Positions 18,726 through 55,272 of a stretch of DNA of 64,000 nt are shown piece by piece; position 1 is the stretch's first letter; each line of letters starts with the position of its first letter. The position numbers and the translations under genes were made by a program. Below the pieces are notes generated by a model. That model made no database searches. It worked only from the letters and a program-made list of their open reading frames with translations, and was not told where the DNA came from. The DNA is from Aquaticitalea lipolytica. Lineage in GTDB: Bacteria > Bacteroidota > Bacteroidia > Flavobacteriales > Flavobacteriaceae. The stretch spans positions 496,001 to 560,000 of the forward strand of contig NZ_BMIC01000001.1 of the NCBI RefSeq assembly GCF_014641635.1, given 5' to 3'.

Positions 18726-18784
18726 ATTATTGTCACTTCGAGTGAAAAAAATATTTGTCATTCTGCACTTGATGCGGAATCTAA

Positions 18785-18815
18785 AAAATCCTGATAAAAC
18801 TATCAGGATTTTTTT
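18785..18815 (+). terminator. Intrinsic terminator after secA
   Basis: AAAATCCTGATA (18785-18796), loop AAAC, TATCAGGATTTT (18801-18812) and more T form a 12-bp stem with a T-run. The same hairpin recurs at 19509-19540 inside the duplicated module. Confidence 0.8.
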
Positions 18816-18924
18816 GTGACCTAAGCTTAAAATTACGTAGAACTACGTATAGTTTTTTAAATTTTAAAAACCTAACTTCGTTTAACTATCGATATAAATA
18901 ATTGAAACAATCCATATCGTAACA
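18785..18924 (+). repeat. Interspersed module, copy A1
   Basis: First of five related modules in the window. In order it holds the terminator hairpin, the near-palindrome TACGTAG-AA-CTACGTA (18834-18849), CTAACTTCGTTTAAC (decamer TTCGTTTAAC at 18877-18886) and a dyad CGATAT (18890-18895) / ATATCG (18914-18919). An orphan gene unit follows at once. Copy A2 at 19509 matches over about 136 bases with one substitution and one T insertion. The dyad next to a conserved core looks like a short integron attC. Confidence 0.85.
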
Positions 18925-18992
18925 TTGTGTAACATTTGAAAAACTCTCATTTGGAAGAAAAACATAAATTCACTCAACCAATAATTAATTCG

Positions 18993-19427
18993 ATGAAAAC
19001 TCTTCTAAAGGGAGAAATTACATTTTCTGAAAGTTATAAAAAATGGATAGTGAAAGCTAATGTGAAATGGAATAAAAGATATATAAGAATAAATCTAGAT
19101 TCAAGAAAAACGGATTTGGTAACAGATTTTTCTATTTGTTCACTAACTAAAGCAAAGTTCTTTACTTTTCTAAGTAGATCTGACTCATACAATTTTTCTG
19201 GAAAGAAAAGTGAATACTCAGAATTATTACTTGAAAGTGTTGAAACGCAATATTTAATGGATAGTAAAAATCCAATAATTAAATTGGAAGGTAAGTCTCT
19301 GATTTTTGAAGGCGGAATAAGAAAAAAAGATATCTCAAGTTTATCTAATGTGTTCAAATTATTTGAAATACTGATGGATGAAATAGAGTGGAAACAAAAA
19401 GAAAACGTTACACAACACCATGTATAA
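18993..19427 (+). CDS. Orphan cassette protein, unknown function
   Basis: Protein of 144 residues, not recognised. It is mixed charged and aromatic with no signal peptide or membrane segment, so it is probably cytoplasmic. It contains ESYKKWIVKANVKWNKRYIR and a C-terminal helix LSNVFKLFEILMDEIEW. The ATG at 18993 was preferred over an in-frame TTG at 18936, which would add 19 residues, because that TTG lies in a motif (ATTTGA) shared by the leaders of all cassettes here. The last residues (VTQHHV) and the stop codon are encoded by the left arm of the attC-like site, a common feature of cassette genes. Confidence 0.6.
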   Translation: MKTLLKGEITFSESYKKWIVKANVKWNKRYIRINLDSRKTDLVTDFSICSLTKAKFFTFLSRSDSYNFSGKKSEYSELLLESVETQYLMDSKNPIIKLEGKSLIFEGGIRKKDISSLSNVFKLFEILMDEIEWKQKENVTQHHV

Positions 19428-19459
19428 TTAATTGCTAGCGCAAAATTATACACTAAGCC
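19407..19459 (+). repeat. attC-like hairpin after orphan gene 1
   Basis: The 3' core GTTACACAAC (19407-19416) is followed by a hairpin at 19421-19452. TGTATAATT pairs with AATTATACA and TTGC with GCAA, with an unpaired AA (19430-19431) on one strand and a TAGC loop. A 13-bp stem with extrahelical bases is typical of integron attC sites. The matching right core GTTRRRY is not intact here. Confidence 0.6.
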
Positions 19460-19508
19460 ACGTCACTTCGAGTGGTTCGAAAAGTGAATGTATCGAGAGC
19501 ATAATCTA

Positions 19509-19540
19509 AAAATCCTGATAAAACTATCAGGATTTTTTTT
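19509..19540 (+). terminator. Intrinsic terminator (duplicated copy)
   Basis: AATCCTGATA (19511-19520), loop AAAC, TATCAGGATT (19525-19534) and a T-run. It is a copy of the secA terminator carried inside module A2 and would end transcription of the first orphan gene. Confidence 0.75.
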
Positions 19541-19649
19541 GTGACCTAAGCTTAAAATTACGTAGAACTACGTATAGTTTTTTAAATTTTAAAAACCTAA
19601 CTTCGTTTAACTATCGATATAGATAATTGAAACAATCCATATCGTCGCA
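19509..19649 (+). repeat. Interspersed module, copy A2
   Basis: Near-identical duplicate of the module at 18785. It contains terminator, TACGTAG/CTACGTA (19559-19574), TTCGTTTAAC (19602-19611) and the CGATAT (19615-19620) / ATATCG (19639-19644) dyad. The 60 bases before it also share TCACTTCGAGTG and AATCTAAAA with the secA 3' flank, so the duplicated unit probably began just after secA. Confidence 0.85.
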
Positions 19650-19671
19650 TTAGGCACAATTTGACGAAACA

Positions 19672-20268
19672 ATGAAATTAACGATTTTCATATTACTTTT
19701 TTCTACAATTTCTGGATTTAGTCAAGAAATAAAATTCAATCTATTTTTGAAAGATTCTTGTTCAAATAAAGTAGAAAGTAGCTTTAACTATTATCTTGAA
19801 AAAAATGGAACAGAATATCATATAACGGATTTTGAAAATGGTACAATTATTCTTCCGACTAAAGGAGAGTATGAACTTATCGCAACCGAAATCGGAGAAA
19901 CACACAAAATTGCAATTGACAAACTAATAAATTCGGACACTCTAATCAAACCGAGAATTGATGAGTATATTAAAATGACCAACGTCTCATTTACGAAAAA
20001 CACAAGTAAAGAAGGGCTTAAAAAACTTGGTATAATCCCTAATAACAAGTTTATGAATTGTGATAAGGTTTGTGACGGAACTGAAACGGATTACTACTCT
20101 AATGGAAATATTCGACTGAAAGCAGAGTTTGAAAATGGACTTGCAATTGGAGAATTAAAAAGGTATTACCAAAGTGGAAAAATAAAAGAAATTTCTATCT
20201 ATGACAAGGATGGAATTTTAATAAAAAAAACTCTATTTAATGAAAATGGAGAAATAAAAAAAGAATAA
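19672..20268 (+). CDS. Orphan cassette protein with signal peptide and MORN_2-like repeats
   Basis: Exported protein of 198 residues. The signal peptide is MKLTIFILLFSTISGFSQ with a Bacteroidetes-style cleavage before Q-E. The N-terminal half is a beta-rich domain (FNYYLEKNGTEYHITDF). The C-terminal half has the YYSNGNIRLKAEFENG, LKRYYQSGKIKEIS and LFNENGEI pattern of MORN variant/YwqK-family repeats, as in the protein at 38382-39089. It is carried by cassette 2 and lies 13 bases after the 5' core. Its role is unknown. Confidence 0.65.
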   Translation: MKLTIFILLFSTISGFSQEIKFNLFLKDSCSNKVESSFNYYLEKNGTEYHITDFENGTIILPTKGEYELIATEIGETHKIAIDKLINSDTLIKPRIDEYIKMTNVSFTKNTSKEGLKKLGIIPNNKFMNCDKVCDGTETDYYSNGNIRLKAEFENGLAIGELKRYYQSGKIKEISIYDKDGILIKKTLFNENGEIKKE

Positions 20269-20272
20269 AAAC

Positions 20273-20411
20273 TGTGCCTAACAAAGTATATAAAAAATTG
20301 CTTTTTTAGGCATAACCGATGTTAGTTGCTCGTTTGCTAGCTTCTGATTTTCCTTCGGAAAATCCTCGCTCACAAACACGCAACAAACCATATACATAAA
20401 CGTTAAACGAA
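20273..20411 (+). repeat. attC-like site after orphan gene 2
   Basis: The left core TGTGCCTAAC (20273-20282) contains GCCTAAC, an exact RYYYAAC. The right core GTTAAAC at 20402-20408 is an exact GTTRRRY. Between them GTATAT (20286-20291) pairs with ATATAC (20390-20395) and TTGC (20298-20301) with GCAA (20380-20383). The loop holds a secondary hairpin GATTTTCC/GGAAAATC (20346-20364). Length (about 139 bases), order and partial mismatches fit a long integron attC. Confidence 0.65.
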
Positions 20412-51230: not shown

Positions 51231-51584
51231 ATGAACTCACCTTGGCACATTTATCTTATGGCAGCAATGTATATTTTTGCTGGCATTATGCATTTTGTAA
51301 AACCAAAAGCGTACTTGCGTATCATGCCTCGCTATTTGCCATACCATAAATTATTAGTACAATTAAGTGGAGTTGCCGAAATAGGTTTAGGAATAGGCTT
51401 GTGTTTTGCAGCTACTAAAGATGTTGCTATATATGGTATTATAGCAATGCTAACGGGTTTTTTATTAGTGCATTTTTATATGCTCTCTGGCGAAAAAGAA
51501 GGTGCTGGTATACCAAAATGGATACTTATTTTACGTATACCTTTGCAGTTTTTTTTAATGTATTGGGCTTACTATTACCTATAA
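51231..51584 (+). CDS. DoxX family membrane protein
   Basis: Small membrane protein of 117 residues with four helices and the DoxX pattern AAMYIFAGIMHFVKPKAYLRI, LVQLSGVAEIGLGIGL and a conserved C-terminal PLQFFLMYWAYYYL. Such proteins may form quinone- or thiol-linked redox complexes. It ends the DUF885 operon. Its stop codon lies at the very edge of repeat module B1, so insertion B began immediately after this gene. Confidence 0.85.
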   Translation: MNSPWHIYLMAAMYIFAGIMHFVKPKAYLRIMPRYLPYHKLLVQLSGVAEIGLGIGLCFAATKDVAIYGIIAMLTGFLLVHFYMLSGEKEGAGIPKWILILRIPLQFFLMYWAYYYL

Positions 51585-51656
51585 AATTACGTGTAACTAC
51601 GTATTGATTATTTGGTTTTTTAAACCTAACTTCGTTTAACTATCGATATCGTCGCA
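51582..51656 (+). repeat. Interspersed module, copy B1
   Basis: Third copy of the module. It has an imperfect TACGTGT-AA-CTACGTA palindrome (51588-51603), the decamer TTCGTTTAAC (51631-51640) and CGATATCG (51644-51651). Compared with copies A1, A2 and B3 the 22 bases between the CGATAT and ATATCG half-sites are missing. Confidence 0.8.
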
Positions 51657-51706
51657 TTGTGCAACACTTGAGAAAATCCTGAATTTCAATTAAAACTCAC
51701 ATTCCA

Positions 51707-52309
51707 TTGAATAAGAAAAAAGAACAATTTGAATTTGTTTATGTTGAAAATGACGGAACAGTGCGTGAATTGGATAATGAAGAAATTGAGTATTTACAAA
51801 CTGAATTTGAACCAACTGATGGAGCAAGACCATATATTAAGAGTAGTTATGAACAACTAACACCTGACAAGAAGATCTTAGGTTTTCTTAATAGAAATAA
51901 AGTTCCAGAAAACATTGAAATAACAGAAACAGATATTCGATATACGGAATTTGGGTTCCCAATAAATATATGTAGCTCGAACAGAATTATAGAATTACAC
52001 GTAGGAATATTTAGTGTATATATTCTTGGTGGTTGGGACGTTGTAGTAGAAGATTTTACTTTTACTCTTACGAATACTCAAAATGGACAAATAATTAATC
52101 CAAGAGATACACAATGGAGAATTCAATCTTATGAATTTGGAGAACTGGCGAAAAAAATAAAAATTCTCGATATTCCAGAAAGAGGTAATTATCGGATTGA
52201 TTTTAAGAACCTAGACAGTTTAAAGGTTTGGAAAGCAAGATTACCATTGATATACAGAGTTTTCAGCAAACCTATCGAGAAACAAAATATCCAAATAATC
52301 ATTTTATAA
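51707..52309 (+). CDS. Orphan cassette protein, unknown function
   Basis: Protein of 200 residues from a TTG start; no ATG fits the reading frame near the 5' end. It is soluble and acidic, without signal peptide. It begins NKKKEQFEFVYVENDG, and a beta-rich middle contains IIELHVGIFSVYILGGWDVVVEDF. The family is not recognised. It lies 50 bases after the 5' core of its cassette and is followed 21 bases later by the attC-like 3' core. Confidence 0.6.
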   Translation: MNKKKEQFEFVYVENDGTVRELDNEEIEYLQTEFEPTDGARPYIKSSYEQLTPDKKILGFLNRNKVPENIEITETDIRYTEFGFPINICSSNRIIELHVGIFSVYILGGWDVVVEDFTFTLTNTQNGQIINPRDTQWRIQSYEFGELAKKIKILDIPERGNYRIDFKNLDSLKVWKARLPLIYRVFSKPIEKQNIQIIIL

Positions 52310-52329
52310 ATATTTGAGTAAACAAAAAC

Positions 52330-52504
52330 GTTTTACAACACCATGTATAATTAATTGCTTGCTTCTCGCATACTTATTAAACCTCAAACCTCATTCCACA
52401 ACAAAACCAAAAAAAGGCATCAATAATTATAAAATTACGTATAACTACGTATTGATTATTTCGCATTTTAAAACTAACTTCGTTTAACAATCAATATCGT
52501 CGTA
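52330..52504 (+). repeat. attC-like site joined to module copy B2
   Basis: The core GTTTTACAAC (52330-52339) is followed by TATAATTAATTG (52346-52357), which pairs with CAATAATTATA (52421-52431) leaving one bulged base. The loop holds a decayed copy of the 3' end of the dipeptidase gene (52377-52420). Then come TACGTATAACTACGTA (52436-52451), TTCGTTTAAC (52479-52488) and a shortened AATATCG dyad remnant. The stretch is closely repeated at 53638-53833. Confidence 0.75.
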
Positions 52505-52522
52505 TTGTGTAGCATTTGAGAA

Positions 52523-53173
52523 ATGAAGAACATAGGAATAATATTAATAATCTTTTTTGCTTTGAGTTGTAATAACAAAACAAATAAAAAACCGACTGAA
52601 AAAGTGAAAATTGAATACCTCAGTTCAAATTATAAAAACGAGACAGAAGAAAAAATTGAGTTTAGTCGAATTGTAAAAGACAGTTCAAATCTGAATTTAA
52701 TAGAAGGAGAAATAAGTTTTGATGAAAATTACAACACACTTCAGAAAATAACTAATAAAAAAATAGTGTTGGAACCTGAAGTTGACTCAATAAAATCTGC
52801 TCTAAAAAATAAGGGTTACCGAGAGAGTTTTGACAATATTGGAAAAATCATTTTTGTACAGATGCAACCTAAAAATGAAAATGATTTTCAGGTTTTAGAT
52901 TTACTACATTCAATGGAAGAAAAGATTCATGAAGAATTGAATAGCAATGGATTAGGAGAATGGGCAGCAGGCGATTTAGGCCCAGGTGGCGCTAACATGC
53001 TTTTTAAAGTTACTGAATGGGAAAAGTCGGTACAGTTGATTATGGGAATTCTTAATCAAGAGAATCTGTTAGATAAAAGTTTAATAATGAAAAGATTGAA
53101 TACAGCAGAAGATGATTGGAACTATGAAATCATCTATCCAATTGATTATAATGGAGTATTTAATCAAATGTAA
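52523..53173 (+). CDS. Orphan cassette lipoprotein
   Basis: Protein of 216 residues with lipoprotein signal MKNIGIILIIFFALSC (lipobox ALSC). The mature part is charged, with an alpha/beta stretch IVLEPEVDSIKSALKNKGY and AAGDLGPGGANMLFKVTEWEKS. No family recognised. The ATG is 10 bases after the 5' core and the stop is 7 bases before the 3' core, leaving almost no non-coding sequence in the cassette, as is usual in integrons. Confidence 0.65.
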   Translation: MKNIGIILIIFFALSCNNKTNKKPTEKVKIEYLSSNYKNETEEKIEFSRIVKDSSNLNLIEGEISFDENYNTLQKITNKKIVLEPEVDSIKSALKNKGYRESFDNIGKIIFVQMQPKNENDFQVLDLLHSMEEKIHEELNSNGLGEWAAGDLGPGGANMLFKVTEWEKSVQLIMGILNQENLLDKSLIMKRLNTAEDDWNYEIIYPIDYNGVFNQM

Positions 53174-53190
53174 AAAAACGCTACACAACA

Positions 53191-53631
53191 ATGTATAATA
53201 TAAAAAAAACGACATTCTTACTATTTTCAGTATTATTAATCGGACTTACTACGAGTGCTCAGGAATTGACTTGCTCGGATTTTAAGAATGGAAATTTCTT
53301 TGTTCCAGCAGATAATCAAACTATTCTGGCATATAAAATAATCCGAAATGGAAATCAACAAACTGAAATAGTTGAAGACCCAGAAAATATTCTTGGAATG
53401 GATTTTAATAAAACTGCATACGAGATAATTGAATGGATTGATGATTGTACATACCGACTCAAGTATGACGAATCAAAAATGGAATTAAGCGAATATGAAA
53501 AATTCTTAAATGACAATAATGGGGTTTTGAATGAAATGGTAAAAATTGAAGGAAAATGTTTCTATTTTAAATCAACATTAAATGTGAATGGAGAAACACA
53601 ATCTATAACTGGAAAAATATGCAAAGAATAA
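53191..53631 (+). CDS. Orphan exported protein, start codon inside an attC-like core
   Basis: Protein of 146 residues with signal peptide YNIKKTTFLLFSVLLIGLTTSAQ. The mature domain has four Cys (ELTCSDFKNGNF, DDCTYRL, GKCFYF, KICKE), probably two disulfides. No family recognised. Its ATG is the ATG of the sequence ACAACAATGTATAAT, which elsewhere here is the non-coding left arm of the attC-like site. So this gene was joined directly to the end of the preceding cassette. Confidence 0.65.
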   Translation: MYNIKKTTFLLFSVLLIGLTTSAQELTCSDFKNGNFFVPADNQTILAYKIIRNGNQQTEIVEDPENILGMDFNKTAYEIIEWIDDCTYRLKYDESKMELSEYEKFLNDNNGVLNEMVKIEGKCFYFKSTLNVNGETQSITGKICKE

Positions 53632-53637
53632 AATACT

Positions 53638-53833
53638 ATGCACAACACCATGTATAATTAATTACTTGCTTCTGTCCTACTTATTATACCTCAAACCTCA
53701 TTCCACCACAAAACCAAAAAAAGGCATCAATAATTATAAAATTACGTAGAACTACGTATTGATTATTTCGCTTTTTAAAACTAACTTCGTTTAACTATCG
53801 ATATAGATAATTGAAACAATCCATATCGTCGCA
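53638..53833 (+). repeat. attC-like site joined to module copy B3
   Basis: Near-duplicate of 52330-52504. It has the core ATGCACAAC, arms TATAATTAATTA (53653-53664) and CAATAATTATA (53728-53738), the dipeptidase-tail remnant (53688-53727), TACGTAG/CTACGTA (53743-53758), TTCGTTTAAC (53786-53795) and a full CGATAT (53799-53804) / ATATCG (53823-53828) dyad. Confidence 0.8.
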
Positions 53834-53860
53834 TTGTAACCAATTTGAGAAAACCAACAA

Positions 53861-54430
53861 ATGATATTTTTAATTCAAGAACCTTTTCCTTTCCAAAAAA
53901 CACTACTGATTGCATTAATTGGTGCTATAATTGGACAAACTCTGATTTTATTAATCAGTTGGATAAAGAGAAAAATTGATTTATCGAGAAAAAAACAAAT
54001 GATTCTCAATGACCTAAATAATCAGAACAAAATTTTGGATGAATTAACGAGAAAACATTTGGAATTGAGACAGTTATTTGAAATGAGGCAAACCGACCAA
54101 TTTACAACGAGTATCTTCCAAGTTCTACAACTAGATATCTATCAAAGTGTTCCTAAAAATGAACTTTATTTAATTTTCAAAAAAAACTTATCAATACTCG
54201 TAGATATTTATAAATCAATCGAATTTCTAAAACAAAATGGACCATATTGGATTTATAAGGATTATTTAGAAAAATCCGAATTACATCTTGAAGAAAAAAA
54301 GAATGATGAAAACCATAATTTACATTGTGAGACTGAACTTGGTTTTATGGATATTGGAATAAAGAACATTGAAAATAATATCACTACTATAAAGGAAACA
54401 AAAGCAAAAATTAAAATACTAACGGATTAA
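53861..54430 (+). CDS. Orphan cassette membrane coiled-coil protein
   Basis: Protein of 189 residues. One N-terminal helix (TLLIALIGAIIGQTLILLISW) is followed by a basic KRKID stop-transfer stretch and a mostly helical cytoplasmic part with coiled-coil character (LNDLNNQNKILDELTRKHLELRQLF) and a C-terminal IKNIENNITTIKETKAKIKI. It resembles small membrane-anchored proteins of unknown role found in cassette arrays. It is 18 bases after the 5' core and 4 bases before the 3' core. Confidence 0.62.
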   Translation: MIFLIQEPFPFQKTLLIALIGAIIGQTLILLISWIKRKIDLSRKKQMILNDLNNQNKILDELTRKHLELRQLFEMRQTDQFTTSIFQVLQLDIYQSVPKNELYLIFKKNLSILVDIYKSIEFLKQNGPYWIYKDYLEKSELHLEEKKNDENHNLHCETELGFMDIGIKNIENNITTIKETKAKIKILTD

Positions 54431-54434
54431 AAAA

Positions 54435-54574
54435 CTGGTTACAACAAAGCATAAAATTAATGGCTGGTTCTAGTCTACTTGGAAAATTCCTGCGGAATTT
54501 TCCGCTGGCAAGTTTCTATTTACTAAATTAGTGCTTAAACGTGCCACTAATATTATACGTAACCGTTAAACGAA
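54435..54574 (+). repeat. attC-like site closing insertion B
   Basis: The core TGGTTACAAC (54435-54444) is followed by GCATAAAATTAATGGC (54448-54463). This pairs with GCCACTAATATTATAC (54543-54558) in 13 of 16 positions, and GTTAAACGAA closes the site at 54565-54574. The loop holds a perfect 10-bp hairpin GGAAAATTCC/GGAATTTTCC (54481-54503). The layout matches the site at 20273-20411. Confidence 0.65.
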
Positions 54575-54585
54575 CCCTCAAACTC

Positions 54586-55272
54586 TCACTCCACCACAAA
54601 ATCAAAATAAGTATCAGGAAAAGGTTCCCAACGTAAAGTAAAATGCCACCATTCTTTTGGGTAGTTTCTAAAATTATGCTTTAACATAACCGTTTGTAAT
54701 AATTGCCTATTGGCTTTTTGTGCTTCAGTAATATTGTCATAATCTACCCAAGATTGCTCACCAAAAAAATCGTAAGGGCTTCCCATATCTAAAGGCACTC
54801 CTGTTTTGCCATCTGTAAGCGTTAAATCTAGCGTACTCCCACGACTATGCCCAGAACGTGTGGCAATATATTCTTCTTTAAACAAATCTTTTTTAGCCAC
54901 ATCTGGATAAAATTGTTGCTTATTTATAGTGTCATTCAAATCGGTTGCCCAATGCATAAAATGGTTTACTGCACGTTGTGGTCGGTAACCATCATACACT
55001 TTTAAGCATATATTTTGCACTTCGAGTTCTTCTTTTACAAGCCTTAAAGCTTGCGCAGCTTGCTCTGTTAGTATTAACTCGTTTGAGGCATAACCATCAA
55101 TGGTATCTCCAACAAAATTATTACTTGTATAATAACGTAACTCTACATCTAAATCTGGTATTACAGATTTAACATACACAAACCCTTCAGGTAAAACTGG
55201 AACATCTTGCTTTGTAAAGGCAAAAGCAATACTTATAAAGGCAACAATAATTATGTTGTGTTTTAATCTCAT
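54586..55272 (-). CDS. ddpX: D-alanyl-D-alanine dipeptidase (VanX/DdpX-like)
   Basis: Zinc dipeptidase of peptidase family M15D, 228 residues, with signal peptide (NIIIVAFISIAFAFT). The substrate Arg is in YDGYRPQRAVNHF, the zinc ligands are in SGHSRGSTLDLTL and EWWHFTLRWE, with the catalytic Glu in the last. It would cleave D-Ala-D-Ala from cell-wall turnover in the periplasm. The single gene without a vanHA context suggests a recycling role rather than glycopeptide resistance. Fragments of its 3' end occur in repeats at 52377 and 53688. Confidence 0.9.
   Translation of the reverse strand: MRLKHNIIIVAFISIAFAFTKQDVPVLPEGFVYVKSVIPDLDVELRYYTSNNFVGDTIDGYASNELILTEQAAQALRLVKEELEVQNICLKVYDGYRPQRAVNHFMHWATDLNDTINKQQFYPDVAKKDLFKEEYIATRSGHSRGSTLDLTLTDGKTGVPLDMGSPYDFFGEQSWVDYDNITEAQKANRQLLQTVMLKHNFRNYPKEWWHFTLRWEPFPDTYFDFVVE

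Follow-up and report, generated by a model that had tools for sequence, protein, structure and literature searches.

In a stretch of 64,000 nucleotides (nt) of Aquaticitalea lipolytica (contig NZ_BMIC01000001.1, positions 496,001 to 560,000, called here the window; the source genome is a draft of 3.14 Mb in 36 contigs), the 2.9 kb between the DoxX gene (51231-51584) and the D-Ala-D-Ala dipeptidase gene ddpX (54586-55272, minus strand, PF01427) hold four co-directional, closely spaced genes, B1 to B4, in a segment named insertion B. Judged by its sequence, insertion B is mobile cassette cargo of a new integron variant at a conserved dispersed docking site, and its units are most probably cassettes of an integron-like system of the Flavobacteriaceae type, held at a dispersed docking pad and not in the integron itself. 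The first-pass annotation had placed four genes of no family between these neighbours, which the open reading frames (ORFs) and the module repeats bear out, and the limits it had drawn, 51631-54574, coincide exactly with the arms of the docking hairpin, of which the left one, TTCGTTTAA, occupies 51631-51639 and the right one, TTAAACGAA, 54566-54574. It had also seen the same modules in insertions A and B of the window, and AAAATTACGTANAACTACGTATNGNTTWTT does occur five times there (two in A, three in B), with none expected from 100 shuffles. Of its description as a second cassette array, the mobile cassette cargo related to insertion A has stood, while the single continuous array has given way to three tandem pads, each followed by cargo. 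The parts of both insertions, with attC denoting the hairpin recombination site of cassettes and lengths of predicted proteins in amino acids (aa), are as follows.

51583-51656, plus strand: pad 1, a shortened copy directly after the DoxX stop codon, with the arm TTCGTTTAA and the crossover A(51656)|TT.
51657-52339, plus strand: cassette 1, with the start TTGTGCAACA, gene B1 and the R''-like CGTTTTACAAC at 52329-52339; its ends are complementary at 7/10 positions, no better than chance.
51707-52309, plus strand: gene B1, ORF of 200 aa with a TTG start, predicted soluble, in two separable parts.
52340-52427, plus strand: attC 5' half, then a stretch resembling the dipeptidase gene 3' end (repeat D4 at 52390-52416).
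52428-52504, plus strand: pad 2, with TTG 20 nt before TAACTTCG (by eye).
52505-53189, plus strand: cassette 2, spanning TTGTGTAGC ... GCTACACAAC from core to core; genome G196 has a cassette with 89% identity to 52505-53188.
52523-53173, plus strand: gene B2, ORF of 216 aa with a lipoprotein signal.
53191-53631, plus strand: gene B3, ORF of 146 aa, predicted exported, beginning within the remains of the cassette 2 attC.
53636-53734, plus strand: R''-like CTATGCACAAC and an attC 5' half, then a second sequence like the dipeptidase gene 3' end (53697-53723).
53735-53833, plus strand: pad 3, full length, with TTG 20 nt before TAACTTCG.
53834-54565, plus strand: cassette 4, with the start TTGTAACCAA, gene B4 and a complete attC.
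53861-54430, plus strand: gene B4, ORF of 189 aa, predicted membrane-anchored, with an N-terminal hydrophobic helix, then charged helical sequence.
54438-54572, plus strand: attC matched by the covariance model R1 at 103.9 bits, E 1.3e-23, the site being one of the 24 model-building sequences.
54566-54574, plus strand: right arm TTAAACGAA of the original empty pad.
18829-20411, plus strand: insertion A, consisting of a pad, cassette A1 (starting at 18925), a short attC, a pad, cassette A2 (starting at 19650), an attC at 20275-20409 and the arm TTAAACGAA at 20403-20411.

Only the last attC of insertion B is complete, the two others being 5' halves, and both inner modules carry, between the attC 5' half and the next pad, sequence resembling the 3' end of the dipeptidase gene (the 27-mer repeat D4). 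The simplest reading of this layout would be a tandem duplication of the pad locus, each copy then holding different cargo. Since B3 begins inside the remains of the cassette 2 attC, its own cassette start has been lost.

The gain and loss of single cassettes can be followed in G130, the sole other genome of the same genus in the comparison set. There, an empty pad reads CGTCGCA|TTAAACAAAACC (L299), and the orthologous place in this genome (L298) reads CGTCGCA|TTACACACAATT, then the gene, GTGTGTAACAACGTGTATAG and CAACAACG|TTAAACGAAATC, the two differing by exactly one cassette with the edges A|TT and G|TT exact. At a second locus (L296, L297), the two species have in common the pad and, as right edge, CCG|TTAAACGAACC, with different cassettes in between, and in the DoxX-ddpX interval, pad and right edge are again found in both, with cargo that has no blastn similarity. 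Among 30 more distant relatives, three have the DoxX and dipeptidase genes as neighbours 11, 16 and 18 bp apart with no pad, four have DoxX on the opposite side, and for the others no DoxX appears within the 1.5 kb examined. By these alignments, the pads are older than their cargo, two congeneric species having different cargo at the same pads, and cassette structure, exact edges and turnover can all be read directly from them.

The cassettes open with N|TTxxxxxxxx, and the matching reverse complement closes two of the three testable cassettes of insertion B, or four of five together with insertion A. Complementarity between the start and R'' reaches 9/10 for A1, A2, B2 and B4, a value equalled by 25, 1, 12 and 29, respectively, of 5000 size-matched random windows. 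In insertions A and B, TT is preceded by A, and in most array junctions by G; as this base varies with the left site, it belongs to that site, and the crossover is N|TT, the crossover of the integron integrase IntI being G|TT. Five loci flagged for conflicting orientation were excluded from the junction and pad comparisons. For the attC sites, a filter that asked for C ahead of the core and A behind R'' and took in GC content, but not pairing, left 80 of 248 candidate chains, and all six outer pairs are found in 43 of the 80 (mean 12.0 and maximum 21 in 2000 permutations); in the unfiltered set, at least five of six pairs occur in 68 of 248 chains against a maximum of 35 in 1000 permutations. 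The model R1 was built from 24 attCs, 21 preselected on the outer helix and three not selected, and this building set, so largely preselected, is 98.8% paired. R1 has matches in 173 of the 199 family genomes, scoring being limited to 16 per genome, and, by hand count, in 49 of the 50 genomes with a strong match (E <= 1e-30) to the integrase clade designated clade I below. On 20 named integrase loci, R1 gave 26 matches in nine loci, all on the same strand as the integrase gene and downstream of its 3' end, and on 60 control loci around other recombinases (962 kb, some nine loci being those of canonical integron integrases), it gave none at E <= 0.01.

The pad is a small attC-like hairpin, TTCGTTTAAC..GATAT..ATATC..A|TTAAACGAA, repeated about 20 times in this genome. 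Of 30 module matches, 25 were examined (five that match other parts of the query were left out), and the core AACTTCGTTTAAC..GATAT.. is present in 21 of them, the remaining four sharing only the palindrome TACGTAG or a chance stretch; none of the 21 core-bearing pads of this genome is followed by the empty-site arm TTAAACGAA. With three candidates scored for each of 249 family genomes, 40 have blastn matches to the empty pad at E <= 1e-4, and in some empty pads elsewhere the two arms change together, as in TTTATC/GATAAA (L273) and GCTTATC/GATAAGC (L277). A search of the window for RNA elements returned one tRNA and no further known RNA element. The -33 element of Flavobacterial promoters is TTG, and among 29 distinct pads retrieved with a core pattern of which TTG is no part, this trinucleotide stands exactly 20 nt before TAACTTCG in 23 (14/14 from other genomes, 8/13 from this genome and 1/2 from G130), other offsets being empty except 14 (8) and 12 (1). 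The -7 box of these promoters is given as TAnnTTTG in the accessible text of PMC9723704. The spacing TTG-N20-TAACTTCG is thus that of a Flavobacterial promoter, which suggests that the pad has a promoter built in.

As to the recombinase, this genome retains a C-terminal integrase remnant of 129 open codons (at C5), which stops some 33 bp short of a cassette start and carries the attI-type motif CATATAACCAG|TT. Adjoining it (L073:4390-7725, G000 C5) is an unusually large cassette (about 3.3 kb) in which several genes lie on the strand opposite to the usual one. Relatives of the remnant are encoded in 115 of 199 family genomes at E <= 1e-20 and form clade I, with a length of about 390 aa (384-403 aa in 18 measured loci), the domain PF00589, a SAM-like domain and an extra N-terminal domain of about 75-95 aa; the N-terminal stretch of about 95 aa has no Pfam match, and this domain may resemble the HARP fold. 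Among the Foldseek matches listed for the integrase model, XerA was best by E-value and VchIntIA by query TM-score (0.56), and none gave a name for the N-terminal domain. The attI motif [AG]TATAACN[AC]G|TT lies near the integrase stop codon in 26 of 40 loci of relatives, with TAnnTTT[AG] before the core in 15 of these 26, and the cassettes that follow are co-oriented with the integrase gene. In L153-L187, the last codons of the integrase genes read TTATCC.., often facing GGATAA just after the stop codon, and attI appears to overlap the gene end as an inverted repeat. Many integrase genes (G130, G074, G103, G053 and others) lie at contig starts with the 3' ends toward the break, as would be expected if repetitive cassette arrays follow and break the assemblies.

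In a tree of 37 rows, clade I (support 100/100), canonical IntI (100/99) and Xer (100/99) were recovered. Clade I has as its sister, at 94/92, a second Flavobacterial clade (Maribacter, Aquimarina, S0862), and the two group with IntI, against Xer and the archaeal XerA-like rows, at 95/88; a tree holding clade I with IntI alone was not rejected (approximately unbiased test, p 0.111). The second clade (L188, L190, L191, L192) itself has 100/100, with attC sites following in at least L188 and L191, and beyond the integrase stop codon of L191 and L192 there are a short hairpin and a cassette-like start. From the catalytic Arg to HxLRH, clade I has 90-92 aa in 17 of 18 rows (the 18th was misread by the pattern), IntI 133-134 in six of seven measured rows (the seventh 114), Xer 97-100 and the archaeal rows 89-90. 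The best NCBIfam profile is that of XerA, NF040815 (cut-off 220), at 209-222 bits for clade I and 234-235 for clade II. The catalytic core and this best profile are shared with XerA/XerC/XerD, from which clade I differs in being separate from Xer (100/100) and lying with IntI.

Compared with the integron, the system shares the cassette start complementary to its own R'' (B1 excepted), hairpin attCs in the layout R''-L''-L'-R' with co-varying stems, a crossover before TT at which cassettes are gained and lost, arrays of co-directional orphan genes, and an attI beside the integrase, found so in the relatives and as the motif-bearing remnant here. It differs in an integrase that has the extra N-terminal domain and not the IntI-specific insertion, in an array placed at the 3' end of the integrase gene and pointing away from it, and in an R' where only GTT is fixed, the integron consensus being GTTRRRY. 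With the clusters of attC sites lacking an integrase (CALIN, which have at least two such sites), insertion B has in common that its cassettes stand far from any integrase, as do those of the array L069 of this genome; the difference is that it has one complete attC and halves, set in a conserved pad. IntegronFinder 2.0 reports for Bacteroidetes only cassette-less integrases (In0) and one complete integron, in Salinibacter ruber M1, reviews count Bacteroidota among the phyla with integrons, and the taxon-wise attC model set holds no Bacteroidetes model, each as far as the accessible portions of these sources go. In the open-access literature no description of this system was found, and one may exist elsewhere.

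An unlikely alternative, and the one that survives best, is that a canonical IntI integron supplied the cassettes, which entered random secondary sites of the attG type, the pad being one of them. Insertion of cassettes into genomes at attG sites is established (Loot et al. 2024, as cited in the accessible text of PMC12901181), and a G130 cassette (L297, C4, about 1490-2310) that lies with exact edges inside a gene at AATATAAG|TT, the gene being uninterrupted in this genome (L296), looks attG-like. Beyond the insertion outside an integron, however, the resemblance ends, for attG sites are non-conserved and the pad is a repeated hairpin with a promoter-like box, conserved across genomes. The enzyme needed is not in evidence either: eight Flavobacterial integrases scored 191-215 bits against TIGR02249 (cut-off 265), five canonical IntI from other phyla, positive controls at the protein level only, scored 457-485, and in 299 family genomes no match above the cut-off or at E <= 1e-40 was obtained, although the controls of that search were silent too and the absence is not proven.

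It is quite unlikely that the pad is a transposing or REP-like repeat whose cargo travels with it or by homologous recombination between pads, with no cassette recombinase. The pads are indeed dispersed repeats with inverted arms, and the three tandem pads of insertion B with their copied flank need some duplication by ordinary recombination. Such movement does not account for filled sites that have, precisely between A|TT and G|TT, one cassette more than the empty ones, nor for a base before TT that goes with the left site and not with the cassette. Moreover, the B2 cassette is common to a locus that is not a pad, and the homology stops at the cores. Among 299 family genomes, one other matches B2 (G196, of another genus; protein 88% identical); there the DNA corresponding to 52505-53188 of the window is 89% identical from TT to the last AA of R'', and the site of the cassette, TATGTTTATCCATATATAACGAG|TTGTGTAGC, shows the integrase clade's attI pattern, with B1, B3 and B4 not beside it.

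Mobile cassettes of the integron-like system are also what the occurrence of the other genes points to. B4 had no match in another genome among 299 searched, its own included. B1 has matches in eight others of 289 genomes, one full-length (65%) and seven to the first or the second half only; its parts, about 1-77 and 78-199, thus occur apart, which suggests domain shuffling among cassettes. In three of nine other B1 matches (L287-L295), an attC starts 12-13 bp downstream. A highly improbable explanation, an ordinary conserved accessory operon lying between repeats by chance, has the co-direction and close spacing of the four genes in its favour and is largely refuted by B1, B2 and B4, the three genes searched across genomes, which display neither conserved order nor co-occurrence, so that the operon of fixed order across genera, named beforehand as the outcome that would contradict cassette cargo, did not appear.

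The protein classes proposed for the four genes from the letters alone (B1 soluble, B2 a lipoprotein, B3 exported, B4 membrane-bound) agree with the features of the ORFs, and profile searches gave no Pfam, NCBIfam or PHROGs family at cut-off for any of them, in line with their having been called unrecognised. The single-sequence structure prediction for B2 was uninformative (pLDDT 41). A role in defence, which had been thought possible, found no support, as PADLOC returned nothing for B1-B3 and, for B4, only PDC-M09B at E 0.0077 with no stretch passing. The array L069 has about ten attC matches and obeys the same cassette-end rule, with no integrase in the listed ORFs of at least 90 aa over the preceding 9 kb; its first gene (L069:7902-8735, G000 C1, about 447.9 kb) encodes a candidate defence protein of PDC-S15 (FRG-type, PADLOC E 7.4e-112), and candidate defence cargo therefore exists in the system, but not demonstrably in insertion B. 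In insertion A, R1 detects one complete attC at 106.8 bits and a weak one at 21.7 bits (E 0.006). Its second gene (19672-20268) has MORN_2 repeats (PF07661) above cut-off, and the terminator downstream of secA at 18784-18815 has a copy at 19508-19539, between A1 and A2, a further sign of tandem pad duplication.

As a mechanism, the integrase would cut one strand of the folded attC, as IntI does, and would join the cut site to attI or, in trans, to a pad, where the box TTG-N20-TAACTTCG would drive transcription of the captured gene. As the integrase of this genome is only a C-terminal remnant, insertion B is probably frozen here.

Several observations weigh against this account. Recombination, use of the pad by the clade I enzyme and promoter activity are all deduced from sequence patterns; the sequence of the pad is neither that of attI nor that of ordinary attC, which makes its use by the same integrase a matter of deduction. 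By TIGR02249 score and catalytic spacing, the Flavobacterial integrases do not carry the IntI-specific insertion by which integron integrases are defined. According to the accessible text of a classification of tyrosine recombinases, that insertion is not fully conserved in its subgroup, yet essential for function (PMC8138268). The 7/10 complementarity of the B1 ends was reached by 1433 of 5000 random windows, and B1 accordingly fails the cassette-end test, while B3, with no cassette start of its own, leaves that comparison to the other units. Six of the 29 pads have no TTG at 20 nt, and the box TAACTTCG is one base off TAnnTTTG. The 18 kb surrounding the G196 cassette yielded no integrase gene. 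Finally, attC also occurs in 124 of the 149 genomes with no strong clade I match (hand count), so that integrase and attC are not tightly coincident and a one-to-one claim is weakened; loss of the integrase, the second clade or exchange may explain these genomes.

A broader reading, which could just as well prove right as wrong, would be that of a distributed integron, in which solitary sockets, each a promoter with an attC-like hairpin, are scattered behind housekeeping genes, and a single integrase of a new lineage swaps single cassettes in trans; that this integrase is sister to IntI and has no IntI-specific insertion is part of the same joint reading. If true, a chromosome would have many independent, individually expressed cassette positions and not one array with a polar promoter.

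Integron searches are aimed at IntI with its specific insertion and at attC sites like those of Proteobacteria, and in the single family surveyed here, 173 of 199 genomes have attC-like sites. Should the system be active, abundant marine and soil bacteria would hold a large, so far overlooked reservoir of mobile orphan genes, the IntI-specific insertion would be dispensable for an integron, and cassette capture would work at many promoter-bearing chromosomal sockets, and not at a single attI.

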